DNA of 25,065 bases from a virus. Under the pieces are notes generated by a model, which saw only the letters and a program-made list of their open reading frames with translations, did not search any database and was not told the DNA's origin. The position numbers and the translations under genes were made by a program. Every line of letters starts with the position of its first letter. Within the stretch, counting starts at the first letter, position 1. The stretch covers positions 1-25,065 of IMG/VR virus record IMGVR_UViG_3300031898_000016; one strand, 5' to 3'. This document shows positions 7,038-23,186 of this stretch, one piece after another.

Positions 7038-7357
7038 CCTATGGTCACCACTCCCTCCTCGAAGTAAGACAGAACGTCCTGAAGTCCTTCGTCCGCACGC
7101 TTCTTGAACACAGTCGCTTGATCTTTCCAACCAGGACCGCGATCCTCAACCAAGAGCCCAGCAGCGAGATCTGCCTCAACCTCTGCGAGCAGGTTCACGA
7201 TCTCCGTCGGAGTCGTCACGGGCACGGTCGTGAGCGACTTGAGCTTGCCGTCTATGATCCGGTTGGCTTGGGTGAGTTTCGCCGTGATCTTTGTGTCTTG
7301 ACTCGCATCCGTGATATCGAGACGTTCCTTTACCATCGTAGCCGTTGCGTAGCCCAT
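7034..7357 (-). CDS. Head-tail connector / adaptor protein
   Basis: A 107-aa helical protein that begins MGYATATMVKERLDITDA and continues with RIIDGKL and EVEADLAAGLLVEDRG. This matches the helical adaptor family (HK97 gp6-like), whose ring sits under the portal and whose members typically begin with a short motif followed by a helix pair. The start overlaps the upstream stop (TGATG) and has a strong GGAGGTGA. Position before the gp10-like gene agrees. Confidence 0.72.
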   Translation of the reverse strand: MGYATATMVKERLDITDASQDTKITAKLTQANRIIDGKLKSLTTVPVTTPTEIVNLLAEVEADLAAGLLVEDRGPGWKDQATVFKKRADEGLQDVLSYFEEGVVTIG

Positions 7358-7860
7358 CAGACTTTCACCTCCTTCGCGAGCAGTACCTTCTGGCCGCCGT
7401 TATCGAGCGGAACGAGCTCAGCCCACTTGAGCTTCAATGTCCGAACTGGGACTTTGACATAATGCCTGCCCTTGACCGTTATGAGGGGGACTTTCTCGCC
7501 GCTGACGCGCTTGATCCGCATCACTATTCCAAGCGGGATGGACTCGATGTCGTGGACCTCTCCCTCGTCGGTCTCCTCAGGGCTGATTATGATGTATTCC
7601 TGTTTGTAGCGGTGATCCCGCATGACTCCAATATAGTAGCCGATGGAGCGCTTGTAGGTCGCGAAGTCGTGATTCTTGAGCATGTCGACCTTACGATCTC
7701 TCGCAATGCAGGCATCCAGCCACAGAACTTCAATTGGCTCGCCGACTCTGAGCAGCTTGATGACGTTGTGCAGATCATCTTCCGGCGGCAACTTCACGAG
7801 TAACTGCTTGAGCGCCTGCTTGCCTGACTTCGGCCTAGAACTGCCGCCTCTCCGACGCAT
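7357..7860 (-). CDS. Unknown SH3-like viral protein, first gene of the tail operon
   Basis: A 167-aa protein with a basic N-terminus, then IEVLWLDACIARD (residues 43-55) and RSIGYYIGVMRDH (71-83), ending in a strand GIVMRIKRV (111-119) and a C-terminal extension. The combination of a WLDA motif, SIGY and a final hydrophobic strand is common in small uncharacterised viral proteins that look like SH3-type barrels. The gene at 13453 shares this layout. The start is 9 nt from the 18-bp motif and has no Shine-Dalgarno, so the transcript is probably leaderless. First place in a connector operon suggests a neck role, but the resemblance to a protein beside the terminase leaves other roles open. Confidence 0.6.
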   Translation of the reverse strand: MRRRGGSSRPKSGKQALKQLLVKLPPEDDLHNVIKLLRVGEPIEVLWLDACIARDRKVDMLKNHDFATYKRSIGYYIGVMRDHRYKQEYIIISPEETDEGEVHDIESIPLGIVMRIKRVSGEKVPLITVKGRHYVKVPVRTLKLKWAELVPLDNGGQKVLLAKEVKV

Positions 7861-7869
7861 CAGAAAGCC

Positions 7870-7887
7870 GACATAGCGGGCTATGCC
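7870..7887 (-). promoter_or_regulatory. 18-bp palindromic motif, copy 1 (tail operon)
   Basis: On the minus strand this reads GGCATAGCCCGCTATGTC and ends 9 nt before the ATG at 7860. It is one of seven related copies in this window, all close to operon heads. The half-sites (GRCATA and TATGYC) are inverted, as expected for a dimeric regulator or a virus-specific promoter element. Confidence 0.75.
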
Positions 7888-7895
7888 TTCCCTCT

Positions 7896-7989
7896 TAAGG
7901 GTTAGTGAACTTTAGTTCACTATTGTGACAAGAAGTGACAAACTTGTAACAATCGTTCACTTTAGTGCACTTTGGTTCACTAACCCTTA
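7896..7989. repeat. Eight-site 10-bp-phased array within a 15-bp inverted repeat; candidate origin or operator
   Basis: Eight related hexamers recur at exactly 10-bp steps: GTGAAC 7905, GTTCAC 7915, GTGACA 7925, GTGACA 7935, TGTAAC 7945, GTTCAC 7955, GTGCAC 7965, GTTCAC 7975. The whole is enclosed by a perfect 15-bp inverted repeat (TAAGGGTTAGTGAAC at 7896-7910, its complement at 7975-7989), and the first two sites form a perfect 8+8 dyad (7903-7922). The spacers are AT-rich. One-turn phasing puts every site on one face of the helix, which suggests cooperative protein binding. Its place between the tail operon and the helicase gene fits an origin or a switch region. Confidence 0.8.
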
Positions 7990-8008
7990 TCTTGAGCTGG
8001 CGAGGGAC

Positions 8009-8026
8009 GACATAGCGGGGTGTGTC
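8009..8026 (+). promoter_or_regulatory. 18-bp palindromic motif, copy 2 (replication operon)
   Basis: Reads GACATAGCGGGGTGTGTC, a weaker right half than the other copies. It lies 5 nt before the GTG at 8032 and mirrors copy 1 across the phased array, so the divergent region is bracketed by the motif. Confidence 0.65.
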
Positions 8027-8031
8027 GGAGA

Positions 8032-9759
8032 GTGGACCTCGACCTCAAGGCGATCAGGCGACAACTGGCTGGCGTGTTCCGCGACCTGTCGGAGATACGC
8101 GTGGAGGAAGAGCCACTGTTTGAGGACGTGGCTGTCCTAAACCCTTCTCTGGCCTTTTTACCGAACGAGGGGAAAGCCTTGGTCGCCGTCGGGCTCCCAA
8201 CTAGGGTAAGGAGGTTGAGAAGTCGGGGTGGGGAGGACGTTCTTCTGCGTGAAGAATACCAAGCAATGCGATACCTGTTATTCCGTAACATCAACGAGGT
8301 GGACGAAAAGACCGACCTTTGGCCGATTGCATTCATGAAATGCGATCCGAAGGAACTCTACTCCGTTGGAATCCGTGCTCGCCCCATCACAATTCCCCCA
8401 CGTCCCCGCATGAGTGCCGCTCTCATCAAGGAGATCAAGGAGGCAGGCGGAATCAAGCCCGAGAATGTCCCAACCCCCCTCGAAGTGTTTCGAGCAATCA
8501 AGTCCAAACTCGTCAAGTTTCATGAGTTCCCAGACGAACAGACGGCTAACTTCGTGACGATATGGATCATTGGGACACACTTCTTCCCACTATTCGCCGC
8601 ATATCCCTACCTCCACATCTGGGGGATAAAGCGAGTCGGAAAATCAAAACTTCTCCATTTCACTTCGTTGCTTGCCTTCAATACCGCATTCTCAAACAAC
8701 CTGACGACCGCGACCATCTTCAGGCTCATCGATGAGTGCATGGCAACACTCTTGATGGATGAGACCGAGGATCTAACCGATCCGCAAAGGAGACTCGACA
8801 TGAGATCAGTCTTGTTGGCAGGCTATAAACGCGGTTCTGTAACTTACCGAGTCGAAGGCGAACGCCGGAAGTATGTGCGCGATTTCGAGGTCTATTCCCC
8901 GAAGGCGCTCGCGAACATCAGCGGCGTTGAGGACGTCCTCGTCGACCGCGCGGTTACGATTGTCATGCAACGAAGCATAGATCGTGCGATAGTCGACAGC
9001 ACTATCGATGATCTGGACCCTGAATGGCAGAAGATACGGGACAAGTTGTATCTGCTCGCACTGTGTAGATGGAAAGAACTCTATGACATCTCCAAGGAGC
9101 TGAAGAACCCCTCAGAAAAGATTTCGGCGAGGGAATACGAACTCTGGCACTCAATCTTCTGCATCGCCAAGTGGCTCTCCGATGACTTGTTGGCTGAACT
9201 TATCCCGTGGGCAGAAGGAAAAGCAGAGGAGAAGGAGATCATAGAACTGAACGACAACAAAGACCTGATGTTACTTCACACACTGACGAGGCATGTTGAC
9301 AAGACAGCAGAGTATTCGGCCGTTCAGATCAGAGATTGGCTGAAGGGTGAATATCCTGAGGATGAAGCCAAAGGGATGGAGTGGCTCAATACTGCATGGA
9401 TCGGGCGCGCACTCAGGAGATTAGGCTTCTTGGATTCTCGGAAGCTCTCGAGGGAGGGCGGGCGACATTTCTACACCGTTAACAAAGACAAGCTCGATTC
9501 GCTCGCGCGGAAGGCGCGCCTTACCGTACCAGCAATACCAGACATACCGGTTCCTGGGCTACCGCACGACATTATCAGAATCGACACCACGGACAAAGTA
9601 GGTCGTCATCTATCGATAATCAAGGTAGGTGACAGTCGCCCAACAACCGGTATCGCTGGTATATCCGGTATAGTCCCGAAGGTCGGCCTGAAAGAGGAGA
9701 AGGATAGCGAGCAGGCCAAGGATGCTTCGACGGCCATCAAGGAGGACGACTCACAGTGA
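8032..9759 (+). CDS. AAA+ ATPase, putative replicative helicase with C-terminal winged helix
   Basis: A 575-aa ATPase with Walker A GIKRVGKS (residues ~198-205), Walker B LLMDETE (~240-246), and a later conserved block SPKALANISG...DRAVTIVMQR containing the likely sensor and arginine-finger region. The pattern resembles helicases of archaeal viruses and mobile elements often annotated as DUF3631-like or MCM-like. Around residues 425-485 a winged-helix region (IRDWLKGEYPE, then ALRRLGFLDSRKL) recalls the C-terminus of MCM. The last ~80 residues are probably disordered. I prefer GTG 8032 because GTG 8020 falls inside the motif. Being first in its operon beside a phased array fits a replication initiator/helicase. 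Confidence 0.78.
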   Translation: MDLDLKAIRRQLAGVFRDLSEIRVEEEPLFEDVAVLNPSLAFLPNEGKALVAVGLPTRVRRLRSRGGEDVLLREEYQAMRYLLFRNINEVDEKTDLWPIAFMKCDPKELYSVGIRARPITIPPRPRMSAALIKEIKEAGGIKPENVPTPLEVFRAIKSKLVKFHEFPDEQTANFVTIWIIGTHFFPLFAAYPYLHIWGIKRVGKSKLLHFTSLLAFNTAFSNNLTTATIFRLIDECMATLLMDETEDLTDPQRRLDMRSVLLAGYKRGSVTYRVEGERRKYVRDFEVYSPKALANISGVEDVLVDRAVTIVMQRSIDRAIVDSTIDDLDPEWQKIRDKLYLLALCRWKELYDISKELKNPSEKISAREYELWHSIFCIAKWLSDDLLAELIPWAEGKAEEKEIIELNDNKDLMLLHTLTRHVDKTAEYSAVQIRDWLKGEYPEDEAKGMEWLNTAWIGRALRRLGFLDSRKLSREGGRHFYTVNKDKLDSLARKARLTVPAIPDIPVPGLPHDIIRIDTTDKVGRHLSIIKVGDSRPTTGIAGISGIVPKVGLKEEKDSEQAKDASTAIKEDDSQ

Positions 9760-10841
9760 ACGACAAGGGCGACATAGATCACGCGCTCTGGCGCGAGGAG
9801 CTTGAGCGCCTCATCAAGTCAGTCGTTCCTCTATCGCCGGGCGGCGTCGCGCTCAGCGGCAAGGGCGCGCTCTTCGTGGATGAGATCGCCAAAGCGGCAT
9901 ACATGATGGCGCGCAAACTTCAACAGCAACATGGTGGCAGAATCGAGCCCCTCTTCGCGCACATCTTCAAGCATCTGATCGAGGATACGACCATTCACGA
10001 ACTCGGACACCTCGCGGGACTATCAGAACCTCAGACTAAGGAAGCAACGCGGACACTTCTGCGCAAGAAACTCATGAAAGTTGTCGACTGGATGGTCTGG
10101 TCGCTCATTCCGTGCCCGAAGAAGAACCGCGAACTGATCACTTGGACCGAATGCCTCAAGTGTACCGACGACGAGAAGGACGAATCCTGTCCTCTCTGGT
10201 CGATCCGTCAGGACTTGGCGCCGAGACAGACGCAGGCCCACACGTTCCACGTCACTGAGCTGACCAACCCGCGCAAGGCGTACTACGAGAGGACCGAGGG
10301 CCACGCGGAAGGCTGGGACGAGAAGGCGATTGACTTCTTCGTCGGGCGCGCGGTCCACAACTATATTCAGACCAAGTATGCAGCTCAGGAGCGGGAACTC
10401 TTCTGTTGGTGGGATCTCGGGGATATTCGAATCATAGGGAGCGCCGACAGGGTGGACATCCAGCACGGCATTCTTTTTGAGTACAAGACCTACGCGACCT
10501 TGGCCTTTCTGCTCGAGCGCAACAAGCCCGAGGATGATCACGTCTATCAGGCCCAATCTTACATCGAGCTACTGAAACACTCGCATCCTTGGATCAAGGT
10601 CAAGAAGATCAAGATCGTCTACATCGCGAAGGCAAAGGAGCCGTCAGTCTTCGGTCGAGAGCAGCCCGCCAGATACAAGGAATTCGTCTTGGAGCCCAAG
10701 CCACCGGAGGATCTCGTTGAGCGCGCGCGGATGTTGGATGCGGCTCTCGAGAAGCGCAAGCCGCCCAAGATGAAGTGCGCAGATTGGATGTGCAAACTTT
10801 GCGGGTATGCTGCGAAGTGCAAGGAGGCCGGATCCAAGTGA
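9756..10841 (+). CDS. Cas4-like PD-(D/E)XK nuclease with N-terminal zinc-binding region
   Basis: A 361-aa protein in two parts. Residues 1-150 hold a helical, winged-helix-like region (LAGLSEPQTKEATRTLLRKK) and four cysteines (120, 133, 136, 145) that could bind zinc. From ~165 a Cas4/RecB-type nuclease follows: TELTNPRKAYYER, H201 in GRAVH, D231 in GSADRVD, E242 and K244 in FEYK, and Q265-x3-Y269. At the end, C341-x4-C-x2-C-x5-C355 is a likely iron-sulfur or zinc site. In typical Cas4 proteins one ligand cysteine precedes PRK; here it is Asn171. The GTGA overlap ties it to the helicase, so processing of DNA ends during replication or recombination is the likely job. Confidence 0.82.
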   Translation: MNDKGDIDHALWREELERLIKSVVPLSPGGVALSGKGALFVDEIAKAAYMMARKLQQQHGGRIEPLFAHIFKHLIEDTTIHELGHLAGLSEPQTKEATRTLLRKKLMKVVDWMVWSLIPCPKKNRELITWTECLKCTDDEKDESCPLWSIRQDLAPRQTQAHTFHVTELTNPRKAYYERTEGHAEGWDEKAIDFFVGRAVHNYIQTKYAAQERELFCWWDLGDIRIIGSADRVDIQHGILFEYKTYATLAFLLERNKPEDDHVYQAQSYIELLKHSHPWIKVKKIKIVYIAKAKEPSVFGREQPARYKEFVLEPKPPEDLVERARMLDAALEKRKPPKMKCADWMCKLCGYAAKCKEAGSK

Positions 10842-11278
10842 GCGAGTTGGATCGTAGCCAAGGGGAACTCGAGCGCGCGCGTTCGCATCGCGAGGGGCTG
10901 CTCTACGTCGCGGGGATGCTGGACGGGGAGGGTAGTGTTATGTTGACCACTACAATGTCGGATACTCCTTGGCGCATCCGTCCCCGCGTCACAATCACCA
11001 ACAATTGCTTCAATACACTCGTGAAGTGCGGGAGGATCCTCAACTGTGGCAGGATTGAGGTGTCGCCGGGAGGAGATTGCTTCCGGTTAGTGATTGAGAA
11101 GCGCGCCGATATCGCGCGCACCCTCAAAGAACTGTTGCCGTTCCTGAAGATCAAGGCGAAGCAAGCCAGACTGATGTTGAGGTTTCTGACAGCCGTCAGT
11201 AGGGAGGCGGAGTTTCGGATGCGCGACCAAATGCGCGCGCTGAACAGGAGAAGGAAGGCCGGAGGGCCAAGAAAATGA
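10838..11278 (+). CDS. LAGLIDADG-type protein (homing endonuclease or derivative)
   Basis: A 146-aa protein with one LAGLIDADG-like motif, LYVAGMLDGEGSV, whose Gly-Glu-Gly end carries the acidic residue that binds metal in this family. The downstream RIRPRVTITN and CGRIEVSPG strands match the beta-saddle that contacts DNA. With one motif it would act as a homodimer. I chose GTG 10838, which overlaps the nuclease stop and has GGAGG about 10 nt upstream. It is free-standing and in step with the operon, so it may be a parasitic homing gene or one recruited for a viral function. The Arg/Lys-rich C-terminus supports DNA binding. Confidence 0.8.
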   Translation: MSELDRSQGELERARSHREGLLYVAGMLDGEGSVMLTTTMSDTPWRIRPRVTITNNCFNTLVKCGRILNCGRIEVSPGGDCFRLVIEKRADIARTLKELLPFLKIKAKQARLMLRFLTAVSREAEFRMRDQMRALNRRRKAGGPRK

Positions 11279-12529: not shown

Positions 12530-12783
12530 CGCTAATCAAGTGGCACGGCAAGGATCCTCTCAAGATCGCATTCGAACTTGCGAACAAGATCAGGAAGGAG
12601 CGCAGGGGCACCTATTCAGACAATTGGGCGCTCATGTCGCTTTCATCGTTGCTCTATGCTGCCGTCTACAAGATTGAACGCGCGCGTTTCACCGAAGATG
12701 AGAAGAAGCGCCTCGATGATCTCATCGACGCTCTGAACTACATCGCGTTTGCAGTCGCGCGCCATGTTGAGGGGAAGGCATGA
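12526..12783 (+). CDS. DUF1599-like (nucleotide-modification-associated) small protein
   Basis: An 85-aa helical protein with RRGTYSDNWALMSLSSLLYA, then VYKIERA and DDLIDALNYIAFAVARH. This order (KxxxYxxxW, a central helix with Ki-R, a final D-L-x-x-Y helix) resembles DUF1599/NMAD1 proteins found near DNA-modification genes of phages. The fold is MazG-like, so a role with nucleotides is plausible. GGAGG lies 8 nt before the ATG, which overlaps the upstream stop. The family match is from pattern only. Confidence 0.6.
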   Translation: MTLIKWHGKDPLKIAFELANKIRKERRGTYSDNWALMSLSSLLYAAVYKIERARFTEDEKKRLDDLIDALNYIAFAVARHVEGKA

Positions 12784-13472: not shown

Positions 13473-13752
13473 GCGCGCGCTCGCTATCCTGCGGACGCTC
13501 AAGCAGAACGACCGCGTAGAGATCGAGGCAATCGATCATCACGCGATCCACAAGATCATAACGAGGCAAGAAGCCAAGGAGACAACGCGGAATGAACCTC
13601 TGACGAACACGACCATAGGATACTACCAGTGGCACGACCGGGACTATACCCTTCTTTCTGCCGATAAGTTGGACGACGAGGATGAGAGGGCGCAATTCAA
13701 CGTGGTTCTCACAAAATACGTCGTGCGCGTGACGAGGCTGAAGCGGAAGTGA
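13453..13752 (+). CDS. Unknown protein sharing layout with the 7357-7860 product
   Basis: 99 aa with VEIEAIDHHAIHK (residues 22-34), TTIGYYQWHDRDY (53-65) and a final strand VVRVTRLKRK. The order of motifs (VEI-x-x-x-D near the start, IGYY in the middle, R-hydrophobic-K at the end) matches the protein encoded at 7357-7860, so the two may be distant paralogues of one SH3-like family. The GTG start has GGAGG 9 nt upstream. Function unknown. Confidence 0.6.
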   Translation: MDRRKHERALAILRTLKQNDRVEIEAIDHHAIHKIITRQEAKETTRNEPLTNTTIGYYQWHDRDYTLLSADKLDDEDERAQFNVVLTKYVVRVTRLKRK

Positions 13753-15266
13753 GCCTCGACTGGACGAAGGTCGGTTTGGCAGGAATAACGCTAGTCCTGT
13801 TCCTCCTTCTCGTTTTCGTCTGGGAGCAGGTCTTCTACCTATTCACCTGCATTTATGTCTCCTTGACTTGGAAGCGGGGCCAAGAGGAGATCAATGAACA
13901 GTTCGCCCGAATCATCTACATCCCGCCCGGTTGGAAGGTCTCCAAGCAATTCGTCAAGGACATCGGTCCTGCGGCTCTCAAGAAGATCCGCGATGATCCG
14001 GTGCTGTTCGCGCGTGCGATTCTGAAGTTCTTCCCCTTCCCCTATCAGGAGAAGTGGCTCAGGGACGAGTCCAAGCGCGTCATCGCGATCTGTGGAAGGC
14101 AGGTCGGGAAGTCGACGACGGCAGCAGTCTCACTCATTCATTTTGCAGTAACTAACCCTAAGACGACCTCGATCATAGTGTCATCGACGCTGAGGCAGAG
14201 CATGGAGACGTTCGACAAGGTCGTGGGCTTCCTGCTCGATTCGCCCCTCAAGAAGTCCGTGATCTATAAGTCGCGCACGCGGATCGTGCTCAGCAACGGC
14301 GCGCGAATCGTCTGTTTGCCCTGTGGCCGATATGGACACTCATTGCGAGGATATACGGTTCATCGTGCCTTTCTCGACGAGGCGCCCGTCATGCCCGAAG
14401 ACGTGATCTCCAACGTCATTTTTCCCATGCTCGCGACGACGAACGGCACGCTCTGGATGATGGGCACGCCCTGGTCGAAAGATCACATCACCTACCGCGC
14501 CTTCATGGACACACAAGGATGGAGCGTCTATCACCTTCCGAGCTCAATCTCGCCCCTGATCACGAAGCAATTCCTCGACGAGCAGCTCAGGTTGATAGGG
14601 GAGGAAAGGTTCCGCCTCGAGTATCTGGCCGAATTCGTAGACGACGCGCGCGCCTACTTCCCGATGACATTATTGCGGATGAACCTGCACGTTTGCGAAG
14701 AGGCTCCCTGCCAGTTCTGTTCGTCCTACGGGAAGCCCGAGGGAGCGCGCGAGCCTTACGGTGGCTATGATCCTGGTGGGAAGGAGTCCTACGCAGCCTT
14801 CGTCGTGATAGATCGCGCGAGGAAGATGGAAGTCAGGTTCATCGACCAAGAGAAGACTGCCGCCGGGGAGGATGAACGGTTCTACACTCGATACACGGTC
14901 AAGATTGCGGACATTCACAAGTGCGCGCGATTCAGGATGATTGGAGTTGACCAAACCGGGATAGGCGCCCCGATCATAGCCCACATGAAGGAGTTGGGAC
15001 TCCCTGTTGAAGGTCACCAATTGACGGCGCGCGTGAAGGAGGAGCTCGCTTCAAGGACAAGGATCCTGCTTGAGAATAGAGGGGCGAAGTTACCTAACGA
15101 TCCCGCGTTGCTGAACTCCCTGAACTGCATCGAATATGAAAGAACGCGCGCGGGAGGCTACACGTTCAGCCACAGGCAGGGGACCTACGACGATCTCGGG
15201 TGGGCGTTCATGCTGGCGCTCGCCGTCGCAAGCGAAAAAAAGGTCGGAGGGATAGTGCTTGGCTGA
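13749..15266 (+). CDS. terL: Terminase large subunit with unusual N-terminal membrane segment
   Basis: The 505-aa packaging motor. ATPase: Walker A GRQVGKS (116-122), Walker B AFLDE (207-211), coupling motif GTPW (239-242). RNase H-like nuclease: D341 in GGYDPGG, D401 in GVDQTG, D481/D482 in YDDLGW. Between the two domains is a cysteine cluster C316-x4-C-x2-C324. Residues ~8-38 form a strongly hydrophobic stretch (LAGITLVLFLLLVFVW and onward), which is not normal for a terminase. The GTG start overlaps the upstream stop (GTGA) but has only a weak GAGG. A TTG at codon 39 would skip the segment but lacks a ribosome site. It is the last gene of the plus operon. Confidence 0.93.
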   Translation: MSLDWTKVGLAGITLVLFLLLVFVWEQVFYLFTCIYVSLTWKRGQEEINEQFARIIYIPPGWKVSKQFVKDIGPAALKKIRDDPVLFARAILKFFPFPYQEKWLRDESKRVIAICGRQVGKSTTAAVSLIHFAVTNPKTTSIIVSSTLRQSMETFDKVVGFLLDSPLKKSVIYKSRTRIVLSNGARIVCLPCGRYGHSLRGYTVHRAFLDEAPVMPEDVISNVIFPMLATTNGTLWMMGTPWSKDHITYRAFMDTQGWSVYHLPSSISPLITKQFLDEQLRLIGEERFRLEYLAEFVDDARAYFPMTLLRMNLHVCEEAPCQFCSSYGKPEGAREPYGGYDPGGKESYAAFVVIDRARKMEVRFIDQEKTAAGEDERFYTRYTVKIADIHKCARFRMIGVDQTGIGAPIIAHMKELGLPVEGHQLTARVKEELASRTRILLENRGAKLPNDPALLNSLNCIEYERTRAGGYTFSHRQGTYDDLGWAFMLALAVASEKKVGGIVLG

Positions 15267-15995: not shown

Positions 15996-16226
15996 CTACG
16001 GACGCCGCCCCTTCTCCCCTTCCTTCTCGGTATATGCCTCGACTCCGAGGCGCACGATGTGGACGACGACTTGAGAACGCTTCGGCACGTCCCGCTTCTC
16101 CTGCTGCGCGCGAGTCTGCTCTGACTTTATGATCGCCTCGATCCGATCGGCGAGCCATTCCGGGACGGAGAACGGCCCCCAGCGCACGCGTTTTTCGTCA
16201 TTGTTGTCGTATGATCCCGACGGCAA
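15996..16226 (-). CDS. RHH-like small DNA-binding protein
   Basis: 76 aa, last gene of the capsid operon, 30 nt after the capsid gene. TTG 16226 is chosen as start because GGAGGG lies 6 nt upstream. GPFSVPEWLADRIEAIIKSE and PKRSQVVVHIVRLGVEAYTE give the strand-helix-helix order of ribbon-helix-helix proteins, separated by a charged linker longer than usual. A repressor or accessory factor is plausible; a decoration role cannot be excluded. Confidence in the gene is higher than in the fold. Confidence 0.6.
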   Translation of the reverse strand: MPSGSYDNNDEKRVRWGPFSVPEWLADRIEAIIKSEQTRAQQEKRDVPKRSQVVVHIVRLGVEAYTEKEGEKGRRP

Positions 16227-16256: not shown

Positions 16257-17207
16257 TTAGGCGCCCGTCATCTTGGCGACTGCCTTGCTCTGCAGGATTC
16301 CTATTCCTCCTCTGCTTGCGGCTATTACTCCAGCCCCGATCTTCCTCTCGAGCTCGTAGGAATCTACGACAACATCGCGGCGTAGCGGGAAGCCGACTGC
16401 GAACCAAGTGTGTATATAGACCGTTCCTGCCGTGACGTGCGGCGATACGAGGAATTTGACGTTGAAGACCTTGCCGATCGCGCCTGTCTGTTTGTCGATG
16501 CCCGCTGTCAGGTAGTTCGCGTTGATGAACTTGTCATCTTGGAGTAACGTATCTGTTGCCTGTGCGGGATTTAGGATACAAACGAACTGTGTTAGAGGTG
16601 ACCAACCCTCGCCCCACAGCACGTTCAGTAAAGTCAGGACATCGGCATAGGCGAATTTGTTTGCATTTACTGGAGACTGTGCGCCTCCGCCCGCGAGATT
16701 GCCTGCGCTGATACCGCCTAGCTTCGTGATGTATTCCGAGTTCTCAAGGTAGTAGACATCCTCGACGAGTTGCCTTCCGACGCCGGTTAGAACTCCGCCG
16801 GGCGTGTCCTCAAGGGACACTCTGTCCCATTCCTGCGCGGCGTTCCACTCGTATGGGTTTACGTCAACGTCGACATAGTCAAGCGAGGAACCGAGTATCA
16901 TCGGTTGCGCGCCAGGTGCTCTTTTGGTCGGAGTCCCTGCCTTGAATCGCGGGAACCTCACCTTCGGCTGGTCGGTTTCAACCAGCCAACAGGCATCCCT
17001 CGCGATCGCGGCGTAACGGGCTGCCTCGATGACCTGTCTGTTGTATTCGCCAAGCGCAGCGGCAGCGTCTGGGAAGATGAACTCTTTCATCAGCGCTCGC
17101 ACGAACGGGCTGTTGCTGTTCTTCTCGAGGAACCTTGGATCCTTGAGCAGTGAGTCGATCGTCTCGCACTTCCTTCCCTTCACGACTTCTGTCTTCTCTT
17201 CACTCAT
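16257..17207 (-). CDS. Major capsid protein (HK97 fold)
   Basis: 316 aa. The N-terminal ~55 residues are charged and helical, then YNRQVIEAARYAAIARDACW, a beta-rich core (KVRFPRFKAGT), and the C-terminal half with FVCILNPAQATDTLLQDDKF, GAIGKVFNVKFLVSPHV and RRDVVVDSYELERKI. The block G-x-IGKxFN-V-x-hhVS-P is typical of the HK97 P-domain. It is on the minus strand, opposite the portal and protease, which is unusual. The start has GAGG ~10 nt upstream, only 10 nt after the decoration gene. Confidence 0.88.
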   Translation of the reverse strand: MSEEKTEVVKGRKCETIDSLLKDPRFLEKNSNSPFVRALMKEFIFPDAAAALGEYNRQVIEAARYAAIARDACWLVETDQPKVRFPRFKAGTPTKRAPGAQPMILGSSLDYVDVDVNPYEWNAAQEWDRVSLEDTPGGVLTGVGRQLVEDVYYLENSEYITKLGGISAGNLAGGGAQSPVNANKFAYADVLTLLNVLWGEGWSPLTQFVCILNPAQATDTLLQDDKFINANYLTAGIDKQTGAIGKVFNVKFLVSPHVTAGTVYIHTWFAVGFPLRRDVVVDSYELERKIGAGVIAASRGGIGILQSKAVAKMTGA

Positions 17208-17800: not shown

Positions 17801-17887
17801 ATGAGCTACGACCAAGGATCTGGCGGAACCTCGGATTTCTGCGCAACAAGCCGGAACTTCTTGGGATCATTGAGGGGATCGGGATGA
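17801..17887 (+). CDS. 28-aa leader ORF coupled to the portal gene
   Basis: The first ATG after motif copy 4 opens a 28-aa frame (MSYDQGSGGTSDFCATSRNF...) whose stop overlaps the portal ATG as ATGA (17884-17887). It has no Shine-Dalgarno and would be read from a leaderless or near-leaderless transcript. It may be a peptide or a device that delivers ribosomes to the portal start, which has only GGGGATCGGG before it. No family recognised. Confidence 0.5.
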   Translation: MSYDQGSGGTSDFCATSRNFLGSLRGSG

Positions 17888-19203
17888 GTTTCCTGAGAAG
17901 TATCTTCGGAAAGAAGGAGTCATTCGGCCTGGTTACTGGATTGATGGGTGGACTGGCGCGCGACTACCCCGATCCTTCGCTCGCGGACCAACTCGAGTAC
18001 TACAAGCGTGATCCTACCGTGCGCGCTGCCATAGATGACCTGGCAGAGAGATCCGTGGGCATGGGGTTCTACACAACCGCTGAGACAGGTAGGGCGAAGA
18101 GCGTGATAGATCGTTTCTGCGAGGACGTGAACTTGGATGGCCTGAACCTTCAGGTCGCGCGCGAGTGTTGGGGTGTCGGCAACTCGTTCCTCGAATACAT
18201 GTTCACCAACTATGCAGAGGAGCCCGTTGAAGGATTCGGAAAACTAAGGGTTCCAGCACCGGACAAGTCGATAGGGATGCCACGCCTGATCGGCCTCAAG
18301 CCGCTCCCCGTTGCGTCTTTCACCAAGATCCACAGGAACGCGCTAGGGAGGGTTCTCGCGTACGAACAAACAGTTGGGGCCACACAACTAATGCAACCCG
18401 AGTGCCTTCTACATTTCAGGTGGAACCCCGTGAACGAGAGCGCGTTCGGAGTCGGCCTGATCACCACGCTCGCAAGTCCGGGCAAGGGATTCGTGATCGA
18501 CGCGACTACAGGGACGACGGCAAAACGCCCATCTTGGCTGGCGATGAAGGAGCGCACGGAGAACGCGCTCAACGACTTCTTCATCCGCTACATCGGGCGC
18601 TATGCGTTCGTCTGGAAGGGCGAAGATCAGGAGAAGGTGAAGGAATACTTCGCAGCGATCAAGACTTTGAGGGAGAATCAGGACATCGGCGTCGGCACAA
18701 GCACGGGCGCGGACTTCGACATCAAGACGCTCTCGATAGATCCGCGCGCGCGATTCGACACGATCCTCCCCTACTTCGAGAACCGCGTCCTGGAGGGGCT
18801 TGAGACACCCATCAACAAGCTGTTCACCACTCCAGGATTCACAGAGGCCAGCGCGAAGGCAGCAGTTGAGATCAGCGAGAGGAAAGTGGCAGCATTTCAG
18901 CGCTTCCTCAAACGGATCATCGAACGCGACATCTTCCCGCGCGTGCTCAGGCAGAACGGGCTCAATGTGGAGGAGTCGAAAGCGCGTCTCAACTGGGGCA
19001 TGCAGGAGACGCCTTCCATAGACGTCGAGAACCTCCTCAAGCTGGCTGAGATGAGCGCTCAGTACGGCGTTCAATACATCCGGCCTGATGAAGTTAGGAA
19101 GAGTCTCGCCAAGTTGGGCGTCGAGCTTTGGGAGCCGGAACAACCTGAGGCTGGAGTTCAGACGCCTCCGAAGCAGGGCAAGCCGATCGAGGTGGGGACC
19201 TGA
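17884..19203 (+). CDS. Portal protein
   Basis: 439 aa. The N-terminal LEYYKRDPTVRAAIDDLAER, then WGVGNSFLEYMF, LKPLPVASFTKIHRNALG and CLLHFRWNPVNESAFGVGLI are the usual siphovirus-type portal landmarks: stem start, wing and clip. A long helical part (VKEYFAAIKTLRENQDIGVG, later AAVEISERKVAAFQRFL) ends near the proline-rich C-terminus. It forms the dodecameric ring through which DNA enters and leaves. The ATG overlaps the leader ORF stop, and its own stop overlaps the protease start (TGATG). Confidence 0.92.
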   Translation: MSFLRSIFGKKESFGLVTGLMGGLARDYPDPSLADQLEYYKRDPTVRAAIDDLAERSVGMGFYTTAETGRAKSVIDRFCEDVNLDGLNLQVARECWGVGNSFLEYMFTNYAEEPVEGFGKLRVPAPDKSIGMPRLIGLKPLPVASFTKIHRNALGRVLAYEQTVGATQLMQPECLLHFRWNPVNESAFGVGLITTLASPGKGFVIDATTGTTAKRPSWLAMKERTENALNDFFIRYIGRYAFVWKGEDQEKVKEYFAAIKTLRENQDIGVGTSTGADFDIKTLSIDPRARFDTILPYFENRVLEGLETPINKLFTTPGFTEASAKAAVEISERKVAAFQRFLKRIIERDIFPRVLRQNGLNVEESKARLNWGMQETPSIDVENLLKLAEMSAQYGVQYIRPDEVRKSLAKLGVELWEPEQPEAGVQTPPKQGKPIEVGT

Positions 19204-21841: not shown

Positions 21842-21893
21842 TTTCAGTTTCACCTCCGGGATTGGTGACATCCCAATGTTCGAACAGTTTCAT
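21834..21893 (-). CDS. Possible 19-aa coupled mini-ORF
   Basis: The ATG overlaps the stop of the RHH-like gene (ATGA) and the frame ends 5 nt inside the next gene, bridging the two. The product is MKLFEHWDVTNPGGETESE. The Shine-Dalgarno of the downstream gene lies inside it. It may be a true peptide or only keep ribosomes on the message. Confidence 0.35.
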   Translation of the reverse strand: MKLFEHWDVTNPGGETESE

Positions 21894-22246
21894 GATACCC
21901 TCTGTCTCCTCGCAGCCCGCTTCTCAAGCACCTTAAGGATCTGGATGATCCCGCTCCTGTAGGCTTCATCTGGAGTCATGAACGGAATCTCCTCTGAGTG
22001 CACAGCATCTGCAATTATCGAGCGCTGGGCGCCCGGAACGTTGACCGTGACGCGCCCGCCGTGCCCCCTGGGTGGAGCCTTCCGCTTCTTCAGGGAATAC
22101 CTCTTAATGATTCTAGATCCGGCCAGCCTCGCAAGGGTGTTCCTGTCCTTCAGTTTTGGGTCGCCGAGTCCCTGCAAAACCTCGTCGATCCAGCGCGCGA
22201 GCGCGGTCGGCATGATGATCGAGGCCCTGCCGCCTTCCACTTTCAT
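21890..22246 (-). CDS. Two-module RHH-like DNA-binding protein, candidate regulator of the motif
   Basis: 118 aa with two similar halves. Each has a short strand followed by two helices: ASIIMPTALARWIDEVLQGL with TLARLAGSRIIKRY, and GRVTVNVPGAQRSIIADAV with DEAYRSGIIQILKVLEKR. The strand-helix-helix order resembles ribbon-helix-helix repressors, and the linker is highly basic (KKRKAPPRGHGG). A protein with two such units could bind an inverted repeat as one chain. It is transcribed away from motif copy 5, so it may control itself and the other copies. The ATG follows GGGGGG and overlaps a leader mini-ORF. DNA binding is inferred. Confidence 0.6.
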   Translation of the reverse strand: MKVEGGRASIIMPTALARWIDEVLQGLGDPKLKDRNTLARLAGSRIIKRYSLKKRKAPPRGHGGRVTVNVPGAQRSIIADAVHSEEIPFMTPDEAYRSGIIQILKVLEKRAARRQRVS

Positions 22247-22296
22247 GGCCCCCCTATCACACGCTGATTTCTTAAGCTATTCCTTCCCGCGCCCAA
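22243..22296 (-). CDS. Possible 17-aa leader ORF before the RHH-like gene
   Basis: TTG 22296 opens an 18-codon frame whose stop overlaps the regulator ATG (ATGA), the same layout as the portal leader ORF. It begins 15 nt after motif copy 5 and is preceded by GAGGGCC. The rare start codon keeps the call weak. Confidence 0.3.
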   Translation of the reverse strand: MGAGRNSLRNQRVIGGP

Positions 22297-22311
22297 GTTG
22301 GCCCTCGGGAA

Positions 22312-22329
22312 GGTATAGCCGGGTATGTC
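22312..22329 (-). promoter_or_regulatory. 18-bp palindromic motif, copy 5 (RHH-like operon)
   Basis: Minus strand GACATACCCGGCTATACC, the most diverged copy. Its centre is 35 bp from that of copy 6, so the divergent promoters of this regulatory region lie side by side. Confidence 0.6.
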
Positions 22330-22346
22330 CCCTGGAAAGGCATAAT

Positions 22347-22364
22347 AACATAGCCCGATATGTC
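22347..22364 (+). promoter_or_regulatory. 18-bp palindromic motif, copy 6
   Basis: AACATAGCCCGATATGTC, 12 nt before the ATG at 22377. Upstream CATAATA could serve as a TATA-like element. The gap ends AACTGGC just before ATG, as it does after copy 4. Confidence 0.75.
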
Positions 22365-22376
22365 AGGCCAACTGGC

Positions 22377-22568
22377 ATGGTCGCGCGCGAGTGGGAAGTT
22401 GAGAGCGTGACAGATCTGATCCGCCTCCTCGGTTTCCTGCATACGAAACTCGGTATGCGTTCGCTCTTGATCAAGAACGAAGACTATTGGATCGACACGC
22501 CCGAGATGCGCCTGCAGAGCGCGTATGAGATCATGCGGCTGAGGGAGGGCCTTGCGAAAGGGGTATGA
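22377..22568 (+). CDS. Small unknown early-region protein, 63 aa
   Basis: Starts at ATG 22377, 12 nt after motif copy 6, with no Shine-Dalgarno, so probably leaderless. The product (MVAREWEVESVTDLIRLLGF...) is helical and charged, with no recognised family. It overlaps the winged-helix gene by 17 nt. Given that neighbour, a regulatory role is possible but not shown. Confidence 0.6.
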   Translation: MVAREWEVESVTDLIRLLGFLHTKLGMRSLLIKNEDYWIDTPEMRLQSAYEIMRLREGLAKGV

Positions 22569-22788
22569 CTTCCTGTCAGTCGTGGAGATCCTGAAGACTC
22601 TTGCTCCGAGCCCTGCGAGGATGACCGAGGTCACCAGAGCGAGCGGCTTCTCTTGCCGCGCGCGAGCATACCGATACGTACGGTTCTGCATGGAGACGCG
22701 CCTTGTGCGGAGGGAAGGGATGTTGTATACCCTTACTGAGGCCGGACGGACGCTCGTCGAGGTATGTAGTGAAAACGCTACAAAGTGA
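22552..22788 (+). CDS. Winged-helix protein (HTH_45-like)
   Basis: 78 aa with the full winged-helix order: SVVEILKTLAP, a recognition-helix region (MTEVTRASGFSCRARAYRYV), FCMETRLVRREGMLYTLTEA for the wing and GRTLVEVC for the last helix. This resembles the archaeal HTH_45 family. A TTG start is used, with GAGGGAGG close upstream; no better start is in frame before the domain. It is a second candidate for the protein that binds the 18-bp motif. Confidence 0.72.
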   Translation: MRKGYDFLSVVEILKTLAPSPARMTEVTRASGFSCRARAYRYVRFCMETRLVRREGMLYTLTEAGRTLVEVCSENATK

Positions 22789-22793
22789 TATAA

Positions 22794-22811
22794 GACATAG
22801 CCCGATATGTC
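22794..22811 (+). promoter_or_regulatory. 18-bp palindromic motif, copy 7
   Basis: GACATAGCCCGATATGTC, the consensus copy, 12 nt before ATG 22824. GATATAAG directly upstream (22786-22793) is a plausible TATA box, which would place the motif between TATA and the transcript start, as for a repressor site. Confidence 0.8.
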
Positions 22812-22823
22812 CCCCGAATCCAG

Positions 22824-23186
22824 ATGAGCGAAGTTGAGAAGTTCACATCTGAAGCACCCGAACCACAAGCTCCGGAAAAGAGGCCACCATTCCTGAAGCT
22901 TCGCCCCCCAGAGGGCGATAAGCTCTTCGGCTACAAGGTCAAGGTCATAGGCGAGCCGCGCCAAGTTGTCACGAAGCACGGCCAGAAGACCTTCGTAGAT
23001 GTCGAACTCCTTGAGACCACTGATGACAGGGTGAAGCCGGGATACTTCACGGTCGTTCCTCCGACGATGCTCGAGGACCAACTAAGGAGACTCGGTTGGG
23101 TTGCCGCGAGGATCCTGCTGATCGCCAACACTGGCAAGCCAACCGGGAAGCCCTACTTCCAATTCAGGGTTCAGGAGGTAAAGTGA
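22824..23186 (+). CDS. OB-fold, SSB-like protein
   Basis: 120 aa. After an acidic, Pro-rich N-terminus (~25 aa), FGYKVKVIGEPRQVV, KTFVDVELLETTDDRV and a final strand PYFQFRVQEVK follow the five-strand pattern of an OB fold, as in single-stranded DNA-binding proteins. The start has no Shine-Dalgarno and lies 12 nt after motif copy 7. It would act with the helicase and Cas4-like nuclease, although it is encoded 13 kb away. Nucleic-acid binding is inferred from fold pattern. Confidence 0.65.
   Translation: MSEVEKFTSEAPEPQAPEKRPPFLKLRPPEGDKLFGYKVKVIGEPRQVVTKHGQKTFVDVELLETTDDRVKPGYFTVVPPTMLEDQLRRLGWVAARILLIANTGKPTGKPYFQFRVQEVK

Follow-up and report, generated by a model that had tools for sequence, protein, structure and literature searches.

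The locus and its half-site array

The window, i.e., the whole stretch of DNA that was analysed, is a 25,065-bp virus record that is incomplete at least on the left, where an open reading frame runs off the end. It encodes a tailed virus, with TerL (13749-15266), a major capsid protein (16257-17207, minus strand) and a portal (17884-19203). Within it, 159 bp separate a leftward tail operon from a rightward replication operon, and a 94-bp array of short sites lies inside this gap. As claimed in the original prediction, the array stands between divergent operons beside the gene for a helicase (the replicative ATPase), ends in a perfect 15-bp inverted repeat, and has copies of an 18-bp motif on both sides:

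7357-7860, minus strand: first gene of the leftward tail/structural operon; homologs adjoin TerL in several Nitrososphaeria proviruses
7870-7887, no strand: 18-bp palindromic operator, left copy
7892-7899, minus strand: putative TATA-like element of the leftward (tail) operon, CTTAAGAG, near its 18-bp operator and assigned from position
7896-7989, no strand: mirror-symmetric half-site array, with eight slots on a 10-bp lattice starting at 7905, 7915, 7925, 7935, 7945, 7955, 7965 and 7975
7896-7910, plus strand: left arm of the perfect 15-bp inverted repeat, TAAGGGTTAGTGAAC, covering the outer site and the BRE/TATA side
7904-7921, no strand: palindrome A, AGTGAACTTTAGTTCACT, symmetric at 16 of 18 positions
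7934-7951, no strand: palindrome B, AGTGACAAACTTGTAACA, symmetric at 12 of 18 and centred on the global dyad, 7942.5
7964-7981, no strand: palindrome C, AGTGCACTTTGGTTCACT, symmetric at 12 of 18
7975-7989, plus strand: right arm of the 15-bp inverted repeat, GTTCACTAACCCTTA
7986-7993, plus strand: putative TATA-like element of the rightward (replication) operon, CTTATCTT
8009-8026, no strand: 18-bp palindromic operator, right copy
8020-9759, plus strand: initiator-type helicase, AAA+/SF3-like in its core, with residues ~414-498 modelled as a C-terminal winged helix and residues 503-579 as a disordered tail

The array itself is real: its single 10-bp register and its dyad exceed chance. Self-identity at a lag of 10 was 0.51 (z = 4.8), the highest value among lags of 5-44, and the eight slots had a total of 8 mismatches, compared with at least 18 in every shuffle (60 of 60 for the whole window, 10,000 of 10,000 for local shuffles). 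Across 7861-8019, a single 10-bp phase held all hexamers with no more than one mismatch from GTTCAC/GTGAAC, and those with two mismatches as well, apart from two weak ones. When the 94 bp were compared with their own reverse complement the identity was 0.70, the maximum in the window (the next value was 0.53, and shuffles did not exceed 0.57), while the arms of the inverted repeat could be extended to 33 nt at 82% complementarity.

It had been proposed that eight GTGAAC/GTTCAC sites follow one another without a slip. The 10-bp lattice was borne out, but only four of the eight slots (7905, 7915, 7955 and 7975) carried an exact hexamer. Slot 7965 (GTGCAC) had one mismatch, slots 7925 and 7935 (both GTGACA) had two and slot 7945 (TGTAAC) had three; the central three fit better as GTNAC at 7925, 7935 and 7946, which creates a central step of 11 bp. 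The array can also be parsed as three 18-bp palindromes (A, B and C) that start at 7904, 7934 and 7964, at a spacing of exactly 30 bp, and are symmetric about the global dyad. A LexA-like reading of palindrome A (GAAC-N4-GTTC) was set aside because it fits one site only and because LexA is not known in archaea. The degenerate central half-sites might suggest that the array is a remnant or by-product, i.e., that one operator was duplicated locally and now drifts without function, with the outer sites alone being used. However, phase and dyad are retained across all 94 bp, far beyond what was seen in shuffles, and we consider this explanation very improbable.

The array occupies the whole gap between two putative divergent promoters of archaeal type, and on both sides the arms of the inverted repeat link its outermost site to the presumptive BRE/TATA region. 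Within the window, it was found at this promoter pair only. The 18-bp palindrome, GACATAGC-SS-GMTATGTC, is present in seven copies (7870, 8009, 17708, 17773, 22312, 22347 and 22794), all of them at operon starts. An operator with a TATA-like box just upstream is a typical archaeal promoter layout, and TATA-like boxes (GATATAAG, CTTTTATG, GTTTTAAG) lie directly upstream of several 18-bp sites in both the window and its close relative, L003. Because this layout recurs at other operons, the elements at 7892-7899 and 7986-7993 probably have the same role.

L003 (TerL 78% identical) was the sole close relative in a search of IMG/VR using the helicase, the left-operon gene, a tail gene, TerL and PD-(D/E)XK as probes. 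This record begins within the PD-(D/E)XK gene, so that the array region is absent from it. The 18-bp operator sequence of the window was not found in L003, and a different 18-bp palindrome, GGGATACNNNNGTATCCC, occupies four matching places (7780, 7846, 11413 and 11859). The 18-bp operators look like the target of a virus-wide repressor whose specificity has diverged between the two viruses. A LAGLIDADG-like ORF (10775-11278 in the window) begins inside the end of the PD-(D/E)XK gene, and its counterpart in L003 has 66% identity.

The virus most likely infects a Nitrososphaeria archaeon, as judged from the relatives of TerL, which were present at up to 60% identity in 20 of 400 genomes of the Nitrososphaeria class, and from a small regulator in the window that resembles archaeal winged helices (HTH_45, Sso10a). 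A search for TerL in genome contigs returned no relatives. Neither the window helicase nor a comparable array was found in the TerL-bearing Nitrososphaeria relatives, and a phased GTTCAC pattern (see below) occurred in 0 of the 400 genomes of the class sample. TerL-related proviruses or viral contigs without the window helicase were seen in Nitrososphaeria genomes at L096-L109 (G272, G269, G204, G277, G198, G113, G260 and G279); at L099, a symmetric AT-rich stretch (12559-12650) with GTTAAC/TTAATTAA units adjoins the provirus portal gene. To our knowledge, regulation and replication have been little studied in tailed viruses of Nitrososphaeria.

The helicase and its in-gene iterons

The helicase itself had no Pfam match, and its homologs include a DUF3631 protein. 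A model built from 12 sequences gave the domains listed above for the helicase, and its structural matches included MCM, papillomavirus E1, AAV Rep and SaPI5 PriRep1. The helicase gene also contains an iteron element of its own:

9527-9562, plus strand: left arm of the helicase-gene iteron element, TACCAGCAA TACCAGACA TACCGGTTC, with a 9-bp step
9635-9670, plus strand: right arm of the same element, inverted

The two arms pair at 28 of 36 positions, a value reached by none of 60 synonymous shuffles, and the element (9527-9670) sits in DNA coding for the disordered tail of the helicase. In many of the homologs, the helicase gene contains 9-bp iterons or is immediately followed by them, and these often form two oppositely oriented blocks. 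Of 11 clusters of exactly phased hexamer triples with a 9-bp step in 455 kb, 10 were in helicase genes, although the loci are partly redundant. These 9-bp iterons are likely to be an origin element found throughout the family, and by comparison 9527-9670 would be the best-placed origin candidate in the window. Individual examples of 9-bp iterons in or just after genes of the helicase family were seen at L052, L053, L055, L064, L067, L088-L093, L176 and L180.

In SaPI and SCCmec elements, the C-terminal domain of the helicase binds iterons just downstream of the helicase gene (PMC7581432). The window system resembles SaPI Rep and SCCmec Cch2, i.e., initiator helicases with an iteron-binding C-terminal domain, and the Cch2 iteron, AAGTG, shares the AGTG core. 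The 9527-9670 element also matches their placement, in which short iterons lie within the 3' end of an initiator helicase gene or immediately beyond it. By contrast, whereas the SaPI and SCCmec origins lie just 3' of the helicase gene, the 7.9-kb array is upstream of it, in a divergent promoter, and so departs from the pattern of iterons within or downstream of the gene.

Comparison with P4-type replication iterons

The original prediction allowed for an origin, a genetic switch, or both. As an origin, the array would be a set of P4-like replication iterons, whose decamers would be bound by the C-terminal winged helix of the helicase (or by another initiator), followed by melting of the AT-rich region and loading of the helicase. 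Autoregulation of the helicase operon would follow from the overlap of the array with the promoters, and 9527-9670 would play the part that crr plays next to ori in P4, as an additional cis element. We regard this explanation as tentative, with the odds somewhat against it. According to the P4 record, the type I repeats of ori and crr read TGTTCACC, in both orientations and at adjacent steps of 9-11 bp, and form two clusters, one at ori and the other (crr) at the 3' end of the alpha gene. The window array shares with them a GTTCAC core (exact in 4 of 8 decamers), decamer spacing and the use of both orientations, and the helicase of the genome likewise has a C-terminal winged helix. That such an array is unusual, iterons being longer and direct, was therefore contradicted by the P4 iterons, which are decameric and lie in both orientations. 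However, the P4 iterons are irregularly spaced within clusters that lack the global dyad of the window array. The window helicase also belongs to another family, and its gene carries not the same iterons but another motif (TACCAGNNA-like, with a 9-bp step).

A scan of IMG/VR with the pattern GTTCAC-N4-GTKCAC-N4-GTTCAC yielded 65 loci, several with long decamer arrays. Helicases of the P4alpha, D5, VapE, DUF927 or window type were present at 22 of the 65, compared with 1 of 45 TerL-derived control loci, although some of the 22 are near-duplicates of one another and the controls are loci of another kind. Nine of these 22 arrays were no more than 300 bp from the helicase match (p ~0.02 vs random positions). 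The association between phased GTTCAC arrays and helicases in IMG/VR looks real, given partly redundant loci and an imperfect control. Phased decamer arrays were seen at L123, L167, L118, L172, L148, L146, L112, L135 and L130, several of them near D5, VapE or DUF927 helicases, and L130 has more than 10 perfect decamer copies in one run.

A CACT/AGTG core is frequent in the iterons of the helicase homologs. Iterons of the form TGCACTAAA/TACACTAAA occur at L176, the locus with the nearest winged helix that was found (WLGRALKRLGF vs WIGRALRRLGF). With a matrix derived from the iterons of four homologs, the best cluster in the window was at 7896. Column-permuted matrices, however, also placed the array first in 33 of 1000 cases, and shuffles of the array composition scored equally high in 926 of 3000, so that the match is only suggestive. 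The likeness of the helicase model to initiators such as SaPI5 PriRep1, E1 and MCM would be consistent with iterons, as would the AT content (0.64 vs 0.44). In DNA stability, the array was the third least stable 94-bp stretch, after the promoter region at 17.7 kb and a stretch at 15.8 kb, and the idea that it is a unique unwinding element was rejected because these two are less stable.

Against an origin at the array, and in spite of the motif match with P4 type I iterons, no 10-bp array was found upstream of the helicase at the ~20 homolog loci examined, some of which have little upstream DNA. Where these loci had iterons, they were 9-bp iterons in or by the gene, and the window's own element at 9527-9670 differs from the array in both motif and step. 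A turn in GC skew at the array had been suggested as a check. Third-position skew was ~0 in all gene groups, and the whole-sequence turn near 7.9 kb vanished at third codon positions, so that it only follows gene orientation; skew was rejected as an origin signal. The window does not hold the complete genome, and further origin elements may be located in the missing part.

Plasmid initiator iterons commonly overlap the promoter of their own gene, and for this reason a shared role as switch and iterons is possible. In its full form, with the array as both a P4-type decameric iteron origin and a bidirectional promoter switch, the helicase as both initiator and regulator, and the in-gene 9-bp element alongside, we consider this combination unlikely.

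A candidate promoter switch and its regulators

The reading that we rank first, with a probability of a little under one half, is that the array is a cooperative, AvtR-like operator array, i.e., a genetic switch through which the replication operon and the tail operon are controlled jointly. The P4-like iteron reading ranks close behind and is almost as possible; these values are judgements and not computed probabilities. The switch was placed first because of the exact fit of the array between the two promoters, its global symmetry and the precedent of AvtR. Both readings predict proteins aligned on one face of the DNA, and differ in which protein this would be. Directly observed are the sites and their phase, the dyad, the gene order and the operators on either side. 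As far as promoter placement, global dyad and flanking operators go, the anatomy agrees with the earlier proposal of a protein filament and a switch.

AvtR, a tandem ribbon-helix-helix (RHH) protein of an archaeal virus, covers a stretch of ~100 nt that separates the divergent promoters of gp29 and gp30; it is proposed to form oligomers along the DNA, and with rising dose causes activation and then repression (PMC5569661). The AvtR operator region of Acidianus filamentous virus 6 is like the window array in its extent (~100 nt) and in its position between divergent archaeal-virus promoters, those of the window, like its host, being presumptive; the window virus may also encode a regulator of the tandem-RHH-like type. 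However, the published AvtR consensus, ATnnTnnTAnnACnTT, is not the motif of the window array, Acidianus filamentous virus 6 belongs to another virus class, and binding by the window regulator is a prediction. There is also a likeness to the tripartite operator of lambda, in which three palindromes lie between divergent promoters, although the window palindromes are 30 bp apart and symmetric, and no CI/Cro-type repressor was identified in the window. Three genes could supply the regulator:

15996-16226, minus strand: candidate regulator, a short RHH-like protein
21890-22246, minus strand: candidate array-binding regulator, tandem RHH-like, with beta-alpha-alpha predicted twice in a low-confidence model
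22552-22788, plus strand: candidate regulator, a winged helix related to HTH_45 and Sso10a

In the switch that we favour, a virus-encoded regulator would fill the row of half-sites along one face of the DNA, binding cooperatively. The most plausible candidates would be the tandem RHH-like protein (21890-22246) or the small winged helix (22552-22788). Partial filling could aid recruitment of TBP/TFB, while full filling would shut both promoters, and the 18-bp operators just downstream of the TATA-like boxes would add repression at a second level, acting across the virus. The binding protein, its cooperativity and the direction of regulation are, like the TATA boxes, predictions from sequence.

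The absence of replication-type skew at third codon positions counts in favour of the switch. Counting against it, the proteins proposed to bind GTTCAC are candidates only, and the RHH model is of low confidence (pLDDT 49). The tandem RHH-like protein had no Pfam match, a fold search with its model gave no useful match, and no tandem-RHH protein was found in 300 genomes of the Nitrososphaeria class. In addition, the array stands at a single promoter pair, its motif and spacing match P4-type iterons, and similar viral arrays appear to associate with initiator helicases.

Sites for the omega protein occur in mixed orientation and have a promoter-operator role. By analogy, an RHH or winged-helix adaptor might coat the half-sites of the window array and couple the viral episome to a segregation ATPase, making the array a centromere-like partition site. 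Omega of pSM19035 is reported to bind series of short sites, which function there as parS (PMC9499535, PMC4498918). However, when the ORF list was read no ParA-like ATPase was recognised among the window ORFs, part of the genome being missing, and tailed viruses seldom need such an ATPase. We give this explanation very little credence.

The locus represents a compact, testable system that combines a 94-bp lattice between two promoters, an initiator helicase with iterons in its own gene, and three candidate regulators. Another component is the virus-wide 18-bp operator, which in a close relative has kept four of its places but not its sequence. Should the array be read by the helicase, archaeal viruses would join the systems with P4-like control of replication; should it be read by a regulator, a virus group unrelated to that of AvtR would provide a second example of AvtR-like regulation. 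At 22200-22830, the divergent genes for the tandem-RHH-like and winged-helix proteins, with operators between and after them, have an arrangement like that of an immunity region.
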